Shown here piece by piece: positions 3,300 through 62,380 of a stretch of DNA of 64,000 nt (within the stretch, counting starts at the first letter, position 1; each line of letters opens with the position of its first letter). The notes under the pieces were generated by a model that saw only the letters and a list, made by a program, of their open reading frames with translations, ran no database searches and was not told the origin of the DNA. Source of the DNA: Cladorhizidae sp. MBARI D1340-BT2 (taxonomy: Eukaryota; Porifera; Demospongiae; Poecilosclerida; Cladorhizidae); the NCBI GenBank assembly GCA_028752905.1, contig JAQNBH010000014.1, positions 947,231 through 1,011,230 on the forward strand, read 5' to 3'. A program made the translations under genes and the position numbers.

Positions 3300-3851
3300 T
3301 TAGCCTCTTTTGTCATCATATCCACGAAGCCTAAACAATTGAATAAAGTCGGAGTCAGATTCATCGCCACGACCACGCAGTGGCAAAGATCGTCTAGCCA
3401 AGAACACAACATTAGATAGAAATTTGAGTAAGCACTGCCGATTTTCCTTCATTTCCCGAGCGGAAAGACTCTCACCAATTTTAGGACATGACTGGGGGAG
3501 AGTAATGACTCTCAAAATAGCATCCTTATGACAATTGCTAGCTTCATGGGCAGAAAATCTTAGAGAAGCATCCTTCCAGTTCGTATATCCAGTTGATATA
3601 TAATTATATGCAGTCTCAATAGTTGCGACAGAAAAAAGCCGTTTTTCTTTGTAAGCCTTCACACAAATATAACAGAAGACTGAATCATGGCCCTCATCAT
3701 AATGAAGCCATGTCCAGCGTGTAAACCATTGTGGCTGGAAAGATCTTCTAACAAGATTCTTTTTTCCAAACTCACGCTTTGGAAAACTGAAAGATGGTTG
3801 ATGTGGCTTCTCACCAATAGAGGGAATGGGTAAGTCCTTGGAGAGTGACAT
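3300..3851 (-). pseudogene. hAT transposase N-terminal part with TTF-type zinc finger
   Basis: An open frame of 183 residues on the minus strand starts MSLSKDLPIP. It carries 'FPKREFGKKNLVRRSF', then 'QWFTRWTWLHYDEGHDSVFC' and CYICVKA, the TTF-type zinc finger at the start of ZMYM1-like hAT transposases. 'NWKDASLRFSAHEASNCHK' and 'CLLKFLSNVVFLARRSLPLR' follow, leading into the DUF4371 domain. It ends after LFRLRGYDDKRG; the rest of the domain is not contiguous. The reading frame is unbroken, so this part decayed late or was rearranged recently. Confidence 0.85.
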
Positions 3852-4189
3852 GTCGTCTCGATGATGACTTCGAAAACAAAGCTAACACTAAGTGACTTTC
3901 AGCAGGCTAGCAGCACAAACTATTAGCCAGCATGCTTTAGGCTCTGGCTAGTAGTCAACCCCAATCATTTGAAGGTAAAGGGTTCACCACGCCAGACTAG
4001 ATTTAGGCATGCGCAAATAATAATATTGACCAATTCCCTTGGCCGCTCTCTCAGAAAGTGGTAAGGCCATGGCCTCACCGGTCGCACCGCCCTTGGTATT
4101 AGCTGCACCAGTAGTTGCAGTAGTATTAGTTGCACCAAATTGCAATTGACAACTTCCTGACCATTCATTGACCTCACATACCTCTCCAC
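3852..4189. other. Intergenic stretch, no feature recognised
   Basis: About 340 bp between the hAT and LINE fragments. Open frames exist on the minus strand (3965-4196) but match nothing I know, and no splice structure supports them. Confidence 0.4.
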
Positions 4190-7647: not shown

Positions 7648-8217
7648 CTAGTTTAGACAGTCCATGTGGACTTTTCTGATTATAGAAAAGCCCCTCTTTG
7701 CATCAGCATTGGAGCAGGGTGTGGTCAACAGACCAGCCATGGGACGGAACAAGTAACTAAACCTTAACTCCCCAGCCAAAGTTCTGATCTGGCCCACTTT
7801 CCACCAAAAAGAGCCAGCACAAGGCTTTTCTACAGTTGGTGATGTGGTATGTATCTGGTTTGGAATGTCAGCTGGGGAAAGAAGAAAGTCATTAAATTCC
7901 TCTTCAATGCGGTCAAGTGATTCAGAATCAGATAAACCAATCTGCAGAAATCGGCTCGCCAAATTCAAGACAGTAGCTGTTGAATAAGTGGATGTTTTGT
8001 AAGTGGATGTTTTGTCTGGCTGAAGAACACCTAAATTCTTTAGGAGAGGATCCCCCAAAGGAAACTTCTTTACCATTTTTGCAATGGTTGCCAAGTAGAA
8101 GTTGCATACTGCTGTAAAGAATGGCTTTGGATCCTCTCTCTTCTTCAAATGCTGCAAGACAACCCCAAGTTTCAGTACATATTCCTCGATTCTCATCTGC
8201 AGGGGTGGCTCCGCCAA
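7648..8217 (-). pseudogene. hAT-like transposase C-terminal fragment
   Basis: The minus-strand frame of 189 residues contains 'FPLGDPLLKNLGVLQPD', 'VLNLASRFLQIGLSDSESLD', 'EEFNDFLLSPADIP' and, near its end, 'TTPCSNADAKRGFSIIRKVH'. The closing block corresponds to the hAT dimerisation motif (P-SNADxERGFSxxxKI). It belongs to a different hAT lineage from the pieces at 2.8-3.9 kb. The N-terminal zinc finger and catalytic region are absent, and the frame ends shortly after the motif, so this is a truncated relic. Confidence 0.65.
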
Positions 8218-8826
8218 TTTTGAGGTGGTCAGGCCCAGATGTGGGTGTGGTCAAAACGTGACAGATTTTTCATTTTCACGTTTAAATTAAATTGCATAGA
8301 GATTCATTAAATAAAGGTACCAAATACACATTATATATATATATACAGAAATATACTAATTTGATCAATAATACAGGCGAAAATAAAGTTTAAAAAGGAT
8401 GAAGGGGGTTCATCGTCAACTTCCTCCATACCTTGATGAATTTATGTGGAGGGAGAGGAATGTCCGCACAACTGCTGAGGCTTTTGGCAGCATCCTACAT
8501 GCAACAAAACACAGTACACAGTATAAGTTTGCCCTCTGATGTTTTGTTTTGTTGTTTTTTTGGGTCTCAAAGTCGATGCTGCATTTGTTGTTTTATGAAG
8601 TTGTAGTTGTGTTGTTGTGTATTGCTGCTAATGAATATTGTTCTGTCCAGGGGTATTTGTTACTTACTTTGAGTATCCTTTCTTGATGCCTTCTGAACGC
8701 TCCATCAAAATTAAAGGACCTACATGGTGCGCGCATTTAAGATAAGCAGGGAAAAGTGCATTTTAAAATATATACCGCAAAAACAATTGACGCGCATGGA
8801 TTTTTCAACTTCCGGAGTCTTACTCT
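8218..8826. other. Intergenic, AT-rich, nothing recognised
   Basis: About 600 bp with a short (TA)n tract near 8330. No exon, RNA or repeat family identified. Confidence 0.45.
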
Positions 8827-10748: not shown

Positions 10749-13546
10749 CAGTGGCGGAGAAAACAGGGGGGCAGGGGGGGGCTCTGCCCCCCCAATTTTT
10801 ATACTGTGGGAGGCTTAGCCCCCCCACCCATTTTTTGTCAATGTCAACATGTTTAGTTTGATCATTCACGAACTGCCTTGTGTAATTACAGATATAACTA
10901 TGCAAGTTATGTAGGCAGAGTGAGACTGCAAAGAACATACACTAGATACACTAGATGTTCATGGTTTAATTAGTGCCTTGTGCATGTTATTATAATTTAA
11001 CCATAATCATTGGTGCACTGAGGCTCCTACACTGACACTCATATTATAATGCCCAATTAACCAACTTGCTAGCTCAGCATCTAGACCACATGCATTATAA
11101 CCAGCTACATTATTATCTAGATACCAAGTTGATTTGTAGGCCCTTACTAATAGCTACATTATGCGACAAGCCTCACTGAAAAGTTAGTCCAAAAAAGCAA
11201 AGAAAACTGAGGAACTGGAAAATAGTTCAGAAGCCAGTGATTGTGATGAATCTGAAGCAATGGTTGTCCTTGGCAGTGATGAAAAAGGTGATCCTCAACA
11301 TGGAAGTCCAGAAAATGTAGAGCAGCATTCAAGTGAGATAAACTCAAAACACTCCTATCTTACCAACCCCTAATTATGCTGAGACTTCAAATCAGTGCAT
11401 GTCACAATGTTGTAGAAGCGATATAGAGGCTTTTCAACCAGTTGATAAGCCAACACTAGCACTATTGGTATCTAAACAGAGAAATTTTCAACCAAAGTGG
11501 TATATTAGTATGTGCATTACACAAAAGCAAGTATTTTGTCTTTATTGTCGTTATAGCAAAAAGCATGGTTTACTTTCATTCAGTAAAATGGGGGACAGTG
11601 CTTTTATTAAACCAGGATTCCAGTATTGAAAAAAGCCTTGGAAAAGTTCAGAGGACATGAAGTTTCGCAGAGAAGCAAAATTAAAATAGATAGCTCGTGG
11701 GATGCCAACAATTGCGAGCCAGCTGAGCTGCCACATGCAACAACTTAACCCGAAGAGAAGGACTGCTAATGCAGTTAAAAGGCACAAGATATCTTACTCG
11801 TCAAGCAATAGCCATACTGAATCAGATACAACAGATTCTGCTGGTTTGGAGTGAGAATAATGAAGCTATAAAAAAAACTGGATCAAAGAAAACCGATTCA
11901 CTAGTCATCAGTCAACAGCTCGATTTGTCCATCCGCTGGGTGAATACTGACTATGAAGTACGAGAAGATTCAATTGGCTTATTTAGGGTTCCTGACAATA
12001 GAGCAGAGACTCTTTTCACATAATCAACTGATTCGATGCAGCCTCCCATTATCATTATGTCGAGGACAGGCCTATGATGGAGCTGCCAACATGCAGGGAA
12101 GAAAATCTGGTGTGGCAACGAGGTTCTAAAAATGAATAACCTTCTGCAATTGCACTGCATTGTTGTGCACATTCACTGAATCTTTGCTTACAGGATGTTG
12201 GAAGGAAGCTTGCATGTATCAGAGATGGTCTCGAAACAGTGAAGGAAATAAGCAAGCTCATTCGTCTATCTCTGAAACGACAACATCTCTTTTCATTGAA
12301 GTTACAGGAGACAAGTGGAGGTATTAGTCTGAAGCCATTATGTCCTACCAGATGGACAGCAAGAAAATAGAAGCCATTCTCAAATACAACACTCTATTGT
12401 TAGAGGCACTGGAGGAAATTTATTCAACAACACATGATGAATATGGTTTAAAGGCTGCTGGCTTGATGCACTTTTTGGAAAAATTCAGCACTTTATTTGG
12501 TCTCCAAGTCACTTTTTATTTAGTGCAACAGAGCAAGTTTCTTTCACTTTGCAAAAAGAAGACATAGCCTTGCATGAAGCACACTCTGCTGTTGATGCTG
12601 CTAAGATATTCTTCAAACGAAACCGGACAGATGAAAATTTCGACAGGTTTTATGACAAGTGTGTCACTATTGCTGAAAAGTTCAATATTGGCCAACCAGA
12701 ATTACATCATTACAGAAGGCATCCTCCACGTTTTGAAAGTGGTAGTGGACCACACCTTTTTATGTCTGCAAAGGCAAGCTTTCGGCAAATGTTCTTTGAA
12801 GCGTGTGACCTGCTCTATGGTGAGTTGGAAGACAGGTTTAGTAAACATCAATCCTGGCAATTGAAAAAACTCTTGTGAACTCTTGTGAGTGCAGCAAATG
12901 GTAATGATTATGAAGACAGCATGGAAGATCTCAAGAAATCTTTCTTACAAAGATGATGTCAATATGTCAGACTTAGCCAGACACCTCCAACTCTTACAAG
13001 ATGTTGTCAAGCAAGGTAGCCTTGAAGTGAAGAAAGTCACTTCTGTACAGACGATCTGTGATGTAATGAACAAGAAAAACATTTTCAAAACAATGCTACC
13101 AACTGTGCATCAGCTTCTTCGTCTCTATCTAACAATCTCTGTTACATCTGCAACGGCTGAAAGAACATTTTCTGCACTGAAGCATGTCTTAATGTACACA
13201 AGGTCTACGATGACTGAAGTAAGGCTTTTGCTTGCTTCTCCATGTCCACAAAGATTTAACTGGCTCATGGTTTCAGTCGCCAATGAATTTATTAATAATG
13301 ATGAACGAAAGAAGTTTTTTTTGAAGCTTTCCTTGATGTTTTATATTTATCTTTGTACACACAATCATGCAAAGAATACACCATTGAGTCCTTTAAATTA
13401 AATTTGTCAGTTGAGTGAGAATCCATGGGAGGAGGTATAATAATTGTTCCACCAATTAGCTAGCTAGACAAGGTGGGTGTAGTCCACCAACATTTCTGCA
13501 TGCATATCTCAGCCCCCCCACTTTTAATCTCCTGTCTTCTCCCCTG
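10749..13546. mobile_element. hAT DNA transposon inserted in the 37-bp minisatellite
   Basis: The element begins CAGTGGCGGAGAAAACAGG and ends with a sequence whose complement starts CAGGGGAGAAGACAGG, an imperfect hAT-type terminal inverted repeat opening with CAG. It is flanked by the direct repeat TACTA (10744-10748 and 13547-13551). Removing the element plus one TACTA restores a normal minisatellite unit (...cacactacta-agtatatattg). Just inside the left end is a strong G/C hairpin (ggggggg-ctct-gcccccc, about 10772-10792). Length 2,798 bp. It carries a decayed transposase. Confidence 0.85.
11161..13401 (+). pseudogene. Decayed ZMYM1-like hAT transposase
   Basis: Pieces in order on the plus strand: an acidic/serine-rich N-terminus (11190-11375); a TTF-type zinc finger at 11399-11629 ('QRNFQPKWYISMCITQKQVF', CLYCRYSKKHG); a central region split over several frames (11769-12567); 'FNIGQPELHHYRRHPPRFES' near 12700, typical of the segment before the dimerisation domain; and 12889-13401 with 'YLTISVTSATAERTFSALKH' then RSTMTEVRL, the hAT C-terminal motif. 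Many frameshifts and an in-frame stop soon after the first ATG make it inactive. It lies wholly inside the TIR-bounded element. Confidence 0.85.
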
Positions 13547-31850: not shown

Positions 31851-32584
31851 TTATTTTCTGAAAGCCCCATTTATCTTCAATAACACAAGCAGTTCGAACA
31901 AGTCGTCGGTCAACCCAGACCTTCTAGCTGTCAAAACAAGGATTGCATTAGAAAATAGCCTCTCGGAGGGTGCCGAAGATGCGGGAGCAGTTATAGGCAC
32001 GAAAAAGTGTGAGAATGGATGGATACTCAAGCAGGATGTCTTTGCTTGTCCGTGGGTCCAGCAAAAAACGTTGCAGCTCTGAGCCCTTGGAGTTGCGCTT
32101 AGTGTCCAAAAAATCATCGGAGTCTGAACTTTCTGCTGATTCTTCATGCTGCAGCTCCCGTTCCAACTGCTGGATGATACGCAACCTCTCGTCATCTTTG
32201 CACCACTTCAATTGCGGATACAGTGCAGCTGCCACCAGAAAATCTCCAGTATCTTCCCATTTCCTGAAACGGTCTTTAACTCGAGAAACTATGAAGTCTC
32301 TCAAGCAGTCACCCGTCACAGTATTTATGTTCCTAAGCTTTTTCTGCAGCATGCGAATAGTGGGTAGTACACATCCTGCTCCAACCGAATCCCCTTGCAA
32401 AACATCTAATGCACCTGCTACAGGTGACATCACACAGATCTTGTAGAAACCGCCACTGACCAAGAGTGAACACGGGCAACTTCAGCTCTGTCATCAGGTT
32501 GTTGATCTTGTTTTGTCCACTTTTCAAAATTGACTTCAAGGCATCATAAGATGTGTTCCACCTAGTGGTGTTATGCATAACCAA
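31851..32584 (-). pseudogene. BED-type hAT transposase, C-terminal half
   Basis: The minus strand begins 'HNTTRWNTSYDALKSILKSG' and continues 'LKLPVFTLGQWRFLQDLC'. After a frameshift come 'PVAGALDVLQGDSVGAGCVL'-PTIRML and 'DRFRKWEDTGDFLVAAALYP'; then 'LLEYPSILTLFRAYN' and, in another frame, 'PASSAPSERLFSNAILVLTA'-RRSGLTDDLFELLVLLK. This is the standard order of ZBED-like hAT transposases: the RWNSTYD region, the LQGE region, the PxFKxxW region, then the SAPxERLFSxxGxxxxxRR dimerisation motif. The N-terminal BED finger is absent. At least two frameshifts. The 5' breakpoint at about 32580 carries a 19-bp copy of an internal segment. Confidence 0.85.
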
Positions 32585-52404: not shown

Positions 52405-52957
52405 CAGCAGTGGGTCCTGGACTTACAAAAGATAATTAGCAGTGGCTCCTGGACTTATAAAAGGTAATTAGCAGTGGCTCCTGGACTTATAAAATATAAT
52501 TAGCAGTGGCTCCTGGACTTATAAAAGATAATTAGCTGTGCCCCGGACTTATAAAAGATAATTAGCAGTGAGTCCTGGACATACAAAATATAATTAGCAG
52601 TGAGTCCTGGACATACAAAAGATAATTAGCAGTGTGTCCTGGACTTATAAAAGGTAATTAGCAGTTGTATCCTGGACTTATAAAAGGTAATTAGCAGTGG
52701 CTCCTGGACATAAAATAATTAGCCGGGGTCCTGGACTTATAAAAGATAATTATCAGTGGCTCCTGGACTTATAAAAGATAATTAGCAGTGTGTCCTGGAC
52801 TTATAAAATATAATTAGCTGTGTCCTGGACTTATAAAAGATAATTAGCAGTGGGTCCTGGACTTATAAAAGATAATTAGCAGTGGCTCCTGGACTTATAA
52901 AATGTAATTAGCAGTGGCTCCTGGACTTATAAAATATAATTAGCAGGACTTATAAAA
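52405..52957. repeat. 32-bp minisatellite, left part of a split array
   Basis: The unit contains 'gataattagcagtggctcct' then ggacttataaaa, 32 bp, with variants (gggtcctgg, gtgtcctgg, ggtaatt, tataatt). It stops at 52957 where a transposon begins and resumes in phase at 55863. Confidence 0.95.
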
Positions 52958-52958
52958 T

Positions 52959-53478
52959 GGTCATTCCATATTAACTCAACCAGTGGCTTTGGGGTCATAT
53001 TCTCAGAATTGGTTCATACTCATCCTACAAGTTCCTATGTATGAGATATGTCGCCATGCAAAAAAAAATCGCCCAACTCTCAACTGTTCCTGAGATATGG
53101 CCCCGCCCAATTTTGGCCCCCACGTCACACTGCCATGAGACTAAAGTTACCATTTCCCCCTAAATATTATGATTTCAGGTTTAAAAACTACATCCAGTAG
53201 CTAAAATTGTGCCAGGAGTCCATTTCTGGCATCAGAATTGGCCTAACTGCCGTAGTTATTGAGTAATAAAGGATTTCCTGTTTTTGAGTTGCCTGACTTT
53301 GACCGACCGATTCACCGGGTTGGCATATCACAATCATATTCTGCTTTTGCATGTTGCTTTTGCATGTTGCTTCAGGCATCTCTGGGGTACATCTATGCAA
53401 AATATCAACTTGAGTTTATGCCATCTTCACTGTGAAATGCTGGTCACAAGAATGTGCGATTTCGCATGCGCACGAATG
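52959..53478 (+). repeat. Left terminal inverted repeat (about 520 bp)
   Basis: Matches the complement of 55338-55861 with few substitutions and short indels (for example near 52965-53005, around cccacgtcac at 53120, and a duplicated tgcttttgcatgt at 53341). The inner limit is about gcgcacgaatg. Confidence 0.9.
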
Positions 53479-53829
53479 TGAATCAATAGTTTTCTCATTG
53501 TTTCCATTATTTTTTAATGTATGCTTTAAATTCTCTGGAAATGCTAAAGGATGAAAATTAGAGTCAATAGAGTACCTTTTAAGTCATCATGAGTGACAAT
53601 ACACAACACAAACTCAAATATACACTTTAAACGGACACCAAACAGCATACGCATGGCTACTAACTAAATTGGCATTGACAAGACATGAATATATTGATTG
53701 AACAAACACAGGCTACATAACATATGCACTAACAAGCTGTCCTTTTGCAAGAGCAAATGCATATCACTGCAGTACCTGAGGATTTCCTAGCCTGAGGATT
53801 TCCTAGAGTCACTCTCCATGCTTCAAACT

Positions 53830-55482
53830 TGCGCGTGGTGCGCTGATGATCTTCAGCATTTAACTCGTAGAAGCGTGCACTTTTATGGAAGTCTGGTGCA
53901 TTTACAATGGAGAGCACATTGTGCAAAGGGAACCCAGCAGGCATGCCCCCGCATGATGAGTGGCCACGATAGTCTGCCTTGAGCATTCCGTTTCATAAAA
54001 TTGACATTGACGTCTCCCTCCTCATCTGATCTGTCCACAATACATCCAATGTACTACTCCTTGTCGTACAGACAGGCGATGTACTTGCCAACCTGCAGTT
54101 CTGCATTGTCAAAGTCCTTCTCATCTGGAACATTTCTCTCGCCAATGGCCGTACCAACAAGATCTGCAGAAATTCGTTTCATTTCCAGGGTTGTTTCTGA
54201 TGTCGGAATGCAGCAGTGTGAAGACCTGGTCCCTCTTGGACTCCCACCGCTCGTGGAGACCAAATCGCTGTGCATTTTTATCGACATCCTTATTTTTGAG
54301 ACAAAGAAAAACTTTATGCCTGGAATGTTCTTTGACAACCATTCAAACATGGCCATTGCAGTAAGAATCTGATGGTCAGCCAGTGCTTGAAAACTAGTGG
54401 TATTCAGGCACTTCACAGTACCACCCAGACCATCACAAGGACTTTTACCATGAGACATAGCAAAGAAATGCCAGACTGCTTCAATTCCAAAGTTTTTGAA
54501 GTGGAGACAGACATTGTACAGATTCTTATAGTTTTTGTACTGTTCTCTACATCCATCACTGAAATAGTGCAACTTGGTCACAAAGGGAAGCTGTTCTTTG
54601 ATGTAAGGCATCCCTTTGTTTATGAATGCGTGAACTGCAAGGGTGTCATGCTTCAGGCAGTCAGAAATCATGCACAGATTCAGGTGCTTTAGCTCACCCT
54701 TGGATTTGTAGTAGACTACAAATGGATGCTGTTGCCTGCGAGTTATTCCAGTGGAACGACTGCACCACATCCTTGGCTACAAATGAATAGTTCTCTGCAA
54801 AGTCGAGTAAAGTGATGGCTTCATTGTCTTTGAGCTCATCCTTCAGCTTAGATAGATAGCTGGCTTGTGCCTTTGAGATGTAGTGGTGCTGTCTCAAATT
54901 GTCAAAGGATTCGCATGTTTTTTCGATGAAGTCTTGAACAGTTGAAACGACTGTCATCAGCATGGCTTTACTGTCAACTGAAACCCACTGCTTGTACGAT
55001 ATCTCATCGTCCATGTCATAGTCCTCCGAGAAAGTGTCCGACAAGTACAATGTGAGACCACAGGGACAATTATCACACAACAACAGCATTCACTCACGAT
55101 TTTCCACTGAGCATACATTCTTTTGCAGCAGGTCTGAGTAATGCGGTTTGCCTGGGATGACACTGGTCAGTGGTTTGGCATTTTGGTGTGACTGACAAAT
55201 GCACACCTTATGCATACCAGCTGCCGTAACTGGCCCAAACCGCTGGACCAATTTCGACCAAATTTGGCACATAAGATCTTTGGCAATGACAATGCCTAAA
55301 AAGAAACAAGAAAGAATCGAAGAATGTGCAGATTCCCATTTGTGCGCATGTGAAATCGCACATTCTTGTGACCAGCATTTCACAGGGAAGATGGCATAAA
55401 CCCAAATTGATATTTTGCATAGATGTACCCCAGAGATGCCTGAAGGAACATGCAAAAGCAGAATATGATTGTGATATGCCAA
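53830..55482 (-). pseudogene. Transposase-like ORF of the long-TIR element, nearly intact
   Basis: Minus-strand order: 'VCICQSHQNAKPLTS' (about 55190); 'CMLLLCDNCPCGLTLYLSDT' (about 55080), a Cys-containing block; 'ISYKQWVSVDS'; 'AITLLDFAENYSFVAKDVVQ'-SFHWNNSQAT. After a one-base frameshift near 54730 come 'HPFVVYYKSKGE', 'LHYFSDGCREQYKNYKNLYN' and 'WHFFAMSHGKSPCDGLGGTV'-K. The C-terminus has 'QVGKYIACLYDKE', a premature TAG near 54051, and then 'YIGCIVDRSDEEGDVNVNF' and ACWVPFAQC. The conserved Asp/His motifs (YFSDG, FFA-SHGKSPCDG-GG) are the best catalytic candidates. The ORF starts inside or just beside the right TIR; the true start is unclear. Only one frameshift and one nonsense codon seen, so this copy is young. 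Confidence 0.75.
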
Positions 55483-55861
55483 CCCGGTGAATCAGTCGGT
55501 CAAAATCAGGCAACTCAAAAACAGGAAATCCTTTATTACTCAATAACTACGGCAGTTAGGCCAATTCTGATGCCAGAAATGGACTCCTGGCACAATTTTA
55601 GCTACTGGATGTAGTTTTTAAACCTGAAATCATAATATTTAGGGGGAAATGGTAACTTTAGTCTCATGGCAGTGTGACGTGACGGTCGCGGGGGCCAAAA
55701 ATGGGCGGGGCCGTATCTCAGGAACAGTTGAGAGTTGGGCGATTTTTTTTTGCATGGCGACATATCTCATACATAGGAACTTGTAGGATGAGTATGAACC
55801 AATTCTGAGAATATGACCCTGGAATTTTTTTATGATTTGGTTGATTTCATATGGAATGACC
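55338..55861 (-). repeat. Right terminal inverted repeat (about 520 bp)
   Basis: Complement of the left arm. It shares 'ctgagatatggccccgccca'-type sequence near its outer third and 'gtcacaagaatgtgcgattt' at its inner edge (read as complement). A small difference, gacgtgacggtcgcgggggcc, lies at about 55676-55697. Confidence 0.9.
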
Positions 55862-55862
55862 C

Positions 55863-56335
55863 AAAAGATAATTAGCAGTGGCTCCTGGACTTATAAAAGA
55901 TAATTAGCTGTGTCCTGGACTTATAAAAGATAATTAGCAGTGGGTCCTGGACTTATAAAAGATAATTAGCAGTGGCTCCTGGACTTATAAAAGGTAATTA
56001 GCAGTGGCTCCTGGACTTACAAAATATAAATAGCAGTGGGTCCTGGACTTATAAAAGATAATTAGCAGTGGGCCCTGGACTTATAAAAGGTAATTAGCAG
56101 TGGCTCCTGGACTTACAAAATATAAATAGCAGTGGGTCCTGGACTTATAAAAGATAATTAGCAGTGGGTCCTGGACTTATAAAAGATAATTAGCAGTGGC
56201 TCCTGGACTTATAAAAGGTAATTAGCAGTGGCTCCTGGACTTACAAAATATAAATAGCAGTGGGTCCTGGACTTATAATTAGCAGTGGCTCATGGACTTA
56301 TAAAATAATTAGCAGGGATCCTGGACTTACAAAAG
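55863..56335. repeat. 32-bp minisatellite, right part of the split array
   Basis: Same unit as 52405-52957, about 15 copies, beginning aaaagataattagcagtgg immediately after the transposon. A 'tataaatagcagtgggtcct' variant recurs three times at about 70-130-bp intervals, suggesting block duplication. Confidence 0.95.
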
Positions 56336-61074: not shown

Positions 61075-61725
61075 GTATGTCAGGTAGTCGTGTAGACCAG
61101 ATACGCACCCACTCTGTAGGGTATGCGTGTGGTTTGCGAGCGACTCGGTGGGGAGGTGGCTGGGAAGGGTATTACTGTGCCTGTCATATCCACGCTCCTA
61201 TCTGTGTGTATTGGGCACATGCATTCACCCGTAAAGATAATATGAACACCCACCTTAAATGATGCTGGCTTGTCCAGCGCAGCAATTGTCATCACAAGGT
61301 TAAGAGAAAGCTTGAAACATGGCAACATAATTATTTGAATTTGCATAAATGACAGAAAATTGGCTGCACAGGCAAGTGACATCGGGCTCCCCCCAGGGGG
61401 GGGTATTCTGATAACGTGTGGTTTTAATTTATAGTACCATACATTGTATCTTTGCACACGTACACGCTCTGGTCCTGATTTATACACCAACATGTAGCCA
61501 GTGCAGATGCTTTCTCATGGTGGTCTTTGTTTTGCCATACATGTTTATCTTGTGGGACTGCAGGTTGGAATGTGAAGTGAAATCAACCCCTCAAGCCCCC
61601 TCAAACTCCTTGAGCAACTACTTTCCAGCACCAAGTCTTGAATGACTGTGATTGATAGAGCTGTAGAAACATACAGATTAAAGCAGATTAAAGCCAAGAG
61701 ATATTTTTGTTGAAGCTTGCTGAAG

Positions 61726-61773
61726 CGGGTGCTGGAAATGATTTTCTAGCGAGTGTATTTTTTCCAGCACCCG
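61726..61773. repeat. 11-bp perfect hairpin in the fold-back centre
   Basis: CGGGTGCTGGA (61726-61736) and TCCAGCACCCG (61763-61773) pair perfectly around a 26-nt AT-rich loop. Confidence 0.85.
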
Positions 61774-61894
61774 TGCTTGCCCACTTCATCACGTTTGAAT
61801 ACACTTGTTTTATGTAGAATAGGCTTCCTTTAGCCACAGATAACAATCTCAACTGGCCAATCAAAAACCACAACTACTGCCAGTTCAGGCACTC

Positions 61895-62055
61895 CGGTAA
61901 CTCCACTTTGGCTGCATGGAACAAGCAACTTTTTTTAGCATCAAAAGAGAGCACACAGAGATAGCTATCCGAGCTGTATATCTAGTTCACACAGGAAAGT
62001 GTGCAGAATCTGTGGAGCTCCAAAGTTCTAACCACAAGGATTTGTTAGTGTGTGT
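61895..62055 (+). repeat. Dispersed repeat, copy 3 (about 160 bp)
   Basis: Begins 'tccactttggctgcatggaa' and ends near taaccacaaggatttg. Similar to 52028-52185. Lies in the loop of the fold-back repeat. Confidence 0.65.
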
Positions 62056-62380
62056 GTTTATAATTTAGACCCTTCACATGAACATAAGTCCCCTTATAAA
62101 AATATCTCTTAGCTTTAATCTGTAGTGTTTCTATAGCTCTATCAATCACAGTCATTCAAGACATGGTGCTGGAAAGTAGTTGCTCAAGGAGTTTGAGGGG
62201 GTGATTTCACTTCACATTCCAACCTGCACTTCCAAAACATAAACATGTATGGCTAAACAAAGACCACCATGAGAAAGCATCTGCACTGGCTACATGTTGG
62301 TGTATAAATTATAAATCAGGCATAGCGTGAATGTGTGCAAAGATCTGGTACTTTAAATAAACCATATGTTTTATATCTTA

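Follow-up and report, generated by a model that had tools for sequence, protein, structure and literature searches.

A non-autonomous DNA transposon in a cladorhizid sponge, and the animal family of probable DDD transposases from which it derives

A 64,000-nucleotide stretch of the genome of the sponge Cladorhizidae sp. MBARI D1340-BT2 (contig JAQNBH010000014.1; hereafter the window) carries, at positions 52,958 to 55,862, an element that we regard with little doubt as a cut-and-paste DNA transposon in a non-autonomous, internally deleted form. The family from which it stems would encode a DDD transposase, an enzyme with three catalytic aspartates in an RNase H-like/retroviral-integrase core. 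The relatives of this enzyme, a family recorded as 'uncharacterized', are very probably DNA transposases. The element lies within a 32-bp tandem array and is bounded as follows.

52958..55862, no strand: whole element, 2905 bp, non-autonomous deletion derivative of a DDD transposon; ends set by comparison with genome copies
52954..52957, no strand: target-site duplication (TSD), left copy, AAAA, 4 bp
55863..55866, no strand: TSD, right copy, AAAA, 4 bp
52958..53484, plus strand: left terminal inverted repeat (TIR), about 530 bp; outermost base T where the family has G
55331..55862, minus strand: right TIR
52406..52957, no strand: array of 32-bp tandem repeats, left side of the target (TRF and repeat search)
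55863..56335, no strand: array of 32-bp tandem repeats, right side of the target (TRF; joined flanks restore a 28-bp run)

A repeat search of the window resolved the TIR pair into ungapped segments of 239, 133, 130 and 24 nt that are 92–99% complementary, and the two TIRs align at 93.6% over 502 columns. The long TIRs of about 520 bp described in a first-pass annotation of this DNA were therefore real, and so were the tips, although the limits lie one base further out at each end than its 52959..55861. The tip of the family is GGGTCATT; genome copies read GGGTCATTCCATAT, and the window copy has T in place of the outermost G on the left. Across the copies compared, the tip consensus GGGTCATTCC is strong. 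The AAAA proposed earlier as the target duplication reads as a true one: when the flanks are joined with one AAAA removed, the sequence of the array is regained, and the resulting 28-bp run occurs three further times in the window, with the unit on the left side of the insertion a few bases short.

Copies with the same architecture are abundant in the same-genome assembly (857 Mb, 325 contigs). Among the 40 of 153 candidates that were scored, 26 rows cover almost the full length of the element; one is the window's own, the remaining 25 stand at 90–95%, and 20 of these 25 were retrieved with their flanks. The tip patterns were found in 18 sequences, namely the window element, 16 of the 20 retrieved copies and a longer relative, L045; exact flanking repeats of 2, 3, 4, 5, 6, 7 and 8 bp were present in 4, 1, 13, 0, 0, 0 and 0 of them, respectively. 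No tip pair was recognised in three copies (L016, L025, L026), and in L020 the right tip is altered and a TSD is lacking. Two pairs, L010/L012 and L023/L024, look like duplicated loci because their flanks are identical. When this family was pooled with a second lineage from the same genome, described below, 18 of the 23 independent two-tip sites carried an exact 4-bp TSD; 2000 shuffles of the flank pairs gave 0.93 on average and never more than 5. Sites with a missing or altered tip (L016, L020, L025, L026, L055/56, L059/60, L063/64 and L065/66) were excluded from this count. The 18 exact TSDs are 75% A+T and not confined to A/T.

Between the TIRs lies the remnant of a single gene.

53925..55233, minus strand: remnant transposase gene, matching residues 257–702 of the relative P0002 (740 aa) in two frames (tblastn, open reading frames)
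55092-55090, minus strand: in-frame stop TGA (codons checked)
54729, minus strand: one-base frameshift
54056-54054, minus strand: in-frame stop TAG (codons checked)
54802..54804, minus strand: first predicted catalytic Asp codon, in DFAENY, D425 of P0001
54555..54557, minus strand: second predicted catalytic Asp codon, in YFSDG, D508 of P0001
54432..54434, minus strand: third predicted catalytic Asp codon, in SHGKSPCDG, D549 of P0001
55234..55236, no strand: deletion junction, where this copy lacks about 810 bp of coding sequence that the longer relative L045 has at the same point

By eye, a further stretch near 54310–54260 appears to be out of frame. Since the N-terminal coding part is gone (the first 256 residues of P0002, or 280 of P0001, have no counterpart in the element) and the gene contains stops and a frameshift, the first-pass description of a 'complete' transposon was wrong. 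The motifs YFSDGCREQYKN and FFAMSHGKSPCDGLGG that it had noticed are indeed present in the open reading frame translations. The DFAENY codon, which it lacked, lies in the other frame, upstream of the frameshift at 54729. A Pfam scan of the two window open reading frames gave no match.

Homologues are widespread. A composite query found 360 proteins at E <= 1e-3 and a padded query, which favours longer proteins, found 471 at 0.01; the best 120 of each set were inspected. Named members among the matches listed come from fishes, crinoids, a brittle star, a beetle, Hydra, a leech, a frog and a sea spider, and two more carry bacterial labels (Thioglobus and Sedimenticola), presumably host DNA in metagenome bins. 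The names listed were 'uncharacterized', 'Cc8L18.2-like' and 'ARL14 effector protein'; 'transposase' was absent from all of them. Of the 222 listed proteins, 137 have at least 700 aa, and under a strict pattern 125 of these 137 show all three Asp motifs, while 12 do not. The residues D425, D508 and D549 are invariant in 61 of 61 alignment rows. The second and third motifs are spaced by 40 residues in 202 of the 206 proteins that have both, and the first and second by 79–90, most often 82.

In structural models the predicted core is RNase H-like: acidic residues follow strands 1 and 4, and another sits on the helix behind strand 5. An earlier proposal had placed the Asp and His residues of YFSDG and SHGKSPCDG in an RNase H-like site; in the predicted fold both aspartates hold such positions, and the invariant His of the family is not among the three acids. 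With TIRs and TSDs around many copies and three invariant aspartates in a predicted integrase-type core, the first-pass reading of the protein as very likely a transposase is supported.

A Pfam scan of 61 members returned 65 families at E <= 1, and the 25 of them listed include no transposase catalytic domain; HTH_23, a helix-turn-helix (HTH) family, matched 9 of the 61 (best 3.5e-5). Sixteen proteins scanned singly likewise matched no transposase catalytic domain, and no model for the catalytic domain was found in Pfam or NCBIfam. A profile search of solved structures gave a single match with an E of 0.17, which is not meaningful, and a viral structure library gave nothing at <= 0.001, the top match being a siphovirus transposase at 1.6e-3. 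Lack of a match in such libraries does not demonstrate a new fold. Scans with the window open reading frame or the profile found no relative in a viral contig and a genome contig collection, nor was one of P0001 found in a phage collection; two tip patterns had no match in the viral contigs. Residues ~660–720 of P0001 form a predicted C-terminal barrel whose model matches Tudor/chromo-domain structures; chromatin reading would be an unusual role for a cut-and-paste transposase.

Judged by published descriptions rather than by sequence comparison, the family fits best into the Sola superfamily as a Sola2-like member, an assignment that we consider moderately probable. The system is therefore probably a superfamily already known, one whose proteins general databases have yet to label. 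The competing view, that these transposons form an undescribed DDD superfamily with the same mechanics and no recent ancestry shared with the catalogued ones, appears unlikely to us: it draws on the strong tip consensus, the missing catalytic-domain model and the uninformative names among the matches listed, and it has against it that TSD length, the DDD triad and the TIR range all agree with Sola, as far as described in the parts available of PMC10741241 and PMC3627910. For the same reasons, the first-pass statement that no superfamily fits is not supported, and its 'undescribed system' is not established and probably wrong. A bolder version is more doubtful still: the YFSDG/SHGKSPCDG animal proteins would be an unnamed DDD superfamily that has ends of its own (GGGTCATTCCATRTSAAYTCAACC) and 4-bp TSDs and is still mobile in this genome, and the predicted C-terminal Tudor/chromo-like barrel might steer integration by reading chromatin. 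Families so common in Hydra, fish and echinoderms are presumably in Repbase already. Among the publications listed, none was recognised as describing the family or its tips, and of 54 papers containing one of three tip strings, the 20 listed were, by title, unrelated work.

The origin of the 2.9-kb form can be read from its relatives. All 20 retrieved copies align across the 55234–55236 junction in one piece. L045, which measures 3.5 kb, shares the tips and has the TSD TATA, carries about 810 bp more at this junction, with the gene continuing; it is not intact either, some 177 bp being gone elsewhere in the gene, which starts at residue 59 of P0002 (residue 172 of the 863-aa P0121). Among relatives that retain more of the N-terminus, L044 is the closest (89%), and within 5.5 kb it shows a single TIR. 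In the window element and 18 truncated copies, with two duplicate loci dropped, private substitutions at the three codon positions number 63, 59 and 71 in 1068 columns and shared ones 20, 14 and 15, by plain count without a test statistic. This pattern looks neutral; the 2.9-kb form therefore multiplied as a passenger, presumably moved in trans.

Fuller copies are also at hand. A lineage 46% identical to P0028 has many copies in the same genome, and five of 66 matches have stop-free frames of 869–870 aa matching residues 1–731 of P0002. One, L041, carries TIRs of about 730 bp around its open frame and the TSD AGCT; compared with L043, its frame shows differences of 4 bases and 3 nt. Among ten further copies whose ends were retrieved, six have both tips, four of these with an exact TSD; in the remaining four, one tip is absent from the retrieved stretch. 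L041, L045 and the window element agree well over their first two dozen bases, and sizes across these forms are 2.9, 3.5 and 4.6 kb, with TIRs of about 530 and 730 bp. The 46% lineage members are likely helpers for the 2.9-kb form. In L043, an otherwise near-intact copy of this lineage, a 790-bp palindromic stretch (L043:4405-5194) splits the right TIR. In a third lineage, 57% identical to P0028, L046 has the exact left tip upstream of its gene, and the right tip was not found in 8 kb.

Transposition would then run as follows. The transposase would recognise ends beginning GGGTCATTCCATRTSAAYTCAACC, excise the element, presumably by cut-and-paste rather than replicative movement, and insert it at a 4-bp staggered target cut, repair of which would leave the 4-bp duplication. 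The 2.9-kb form would have lost the ~810 bp encoding the N-terminal part with the predicted HTH and kept both long TIRs, and could therefore be mobilised in trans by fuller relatives.

Two other accounts of the truncated gene fare poorly. Retention by selection as a repressor, like KP, the short repressor product of P elements, might explain the long open frames that persist across the catalytic part in certain copies (460 aa without a stop at C5:32194322), but the private substitutions are spread about evenly over codon positions and the copies break frame differently; the counts disfavour this reading, which we judge very improbable. Capture of a transposase fragment by an unrelated TIR element, suggested by the truncated gene beside a TIR in the window and leaving gene and TIRs unconnected, is the least credible of all and is refuted as a general account by L045, with the same TIRs plus the missing gene part, and by L041-type copies of the 46% lineage, with an open gene between the same tips, and is further opposed by the left tip upstream of the gene in L046.

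Reading the element as a deletion derivative of a DDD transposon supplies an 'uncharacterized' family found from Hydra to fish with a mechanism-level interpretation: a triad, ends, a target-site length, donors and likely helpers, all in one genome. Gene sets that list YFSDG/SHGKSPCDG proteins as host genes should consider a transposon origin, and the near-identical copies with open frames make an excision/integration assay feasible.

Tandem arrays cover 39% of the window outside the element (TRF) and 26% of bases in 20 random samples of the same genome; the genome of the window is very minisatellite-rich. For the 2.9/3.5-kb family, 10 of the 16 independent insertion sites fall within a TRF array, as do 7 of 20 midpoints drawn at random from the genome (Fisher one-sided p 0.096), a suggestive but not significant preference. 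A binomial test against base coverage gave 0.0025, which we do not claim because arrays are clumped. In the 46% lineage, one of seven sites is in a tandem array, as judged from short flanks.

window 52954-55866; L045, L009, L011, L014, L015, L017, L019, L021, L028: array-inserted members of the 2.9/3.5-kb family

Elsewhere in the window, a second inverted-repeat element of about 0.9 kb, with no evident gene, occupies 61425-62365 (outer limits by eye), with arms at 61478-61671 and 62126-62309; its ends look unlike those of the present family. Four open reading frames, 3300-3881 (minus), 7648-8250 (minus), 12889-13401 (plus) and 31948-32481 (minus), resemble hAT transposase fragments by eye.

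Among known systems, Kolobok and piggyBac are likewise DDE/D transposons, but their TTAA target is at odds with the present family (PMC9587614, in the part available, which also gives Kolobok termini as 5'-RR); TTAA occurs in 0 of the 18 exact TSDs here. The C/DxxH motif of hAT, P, MuDR, Kolobok and Dada was not seen between D508 and D549 of P0001, the one protein inspected, by eye. With the retroviral-integrase (DDE/D) superfamily the family shares a predicted RNase H-like core with acids at the expected positions; it differs from Tc1/mariner (Mos1) and retroviral integrases in its variable 4-bp TSD, which is not TA, its long TIRs and its lack of a sequence match to a solved structure. The closest likeness is to Sola, which the available part of PMC10741241 describes as encoding DDD transposases and as having TSDs of 4 bp, TIRs of 11–1124 bp and sizes of mostly 2–9 kb. 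The present family shares the triad, at RNase H-like positions in predicted models, the 4-bp TSD (exact repeats of 5 bp or more in 0 of the 18 sequences with recognised tips), and TIRs and element sizes within those ranges. With dictyostelid Sola2, as far as PMC3627910 describes it in the part available (A+T-rich 4-bp TSDs, an 888-aa transposase), it shares a transposase of similar size and, as a weaker criterion, A+T-rich TSDs that are not exclusively A/T.
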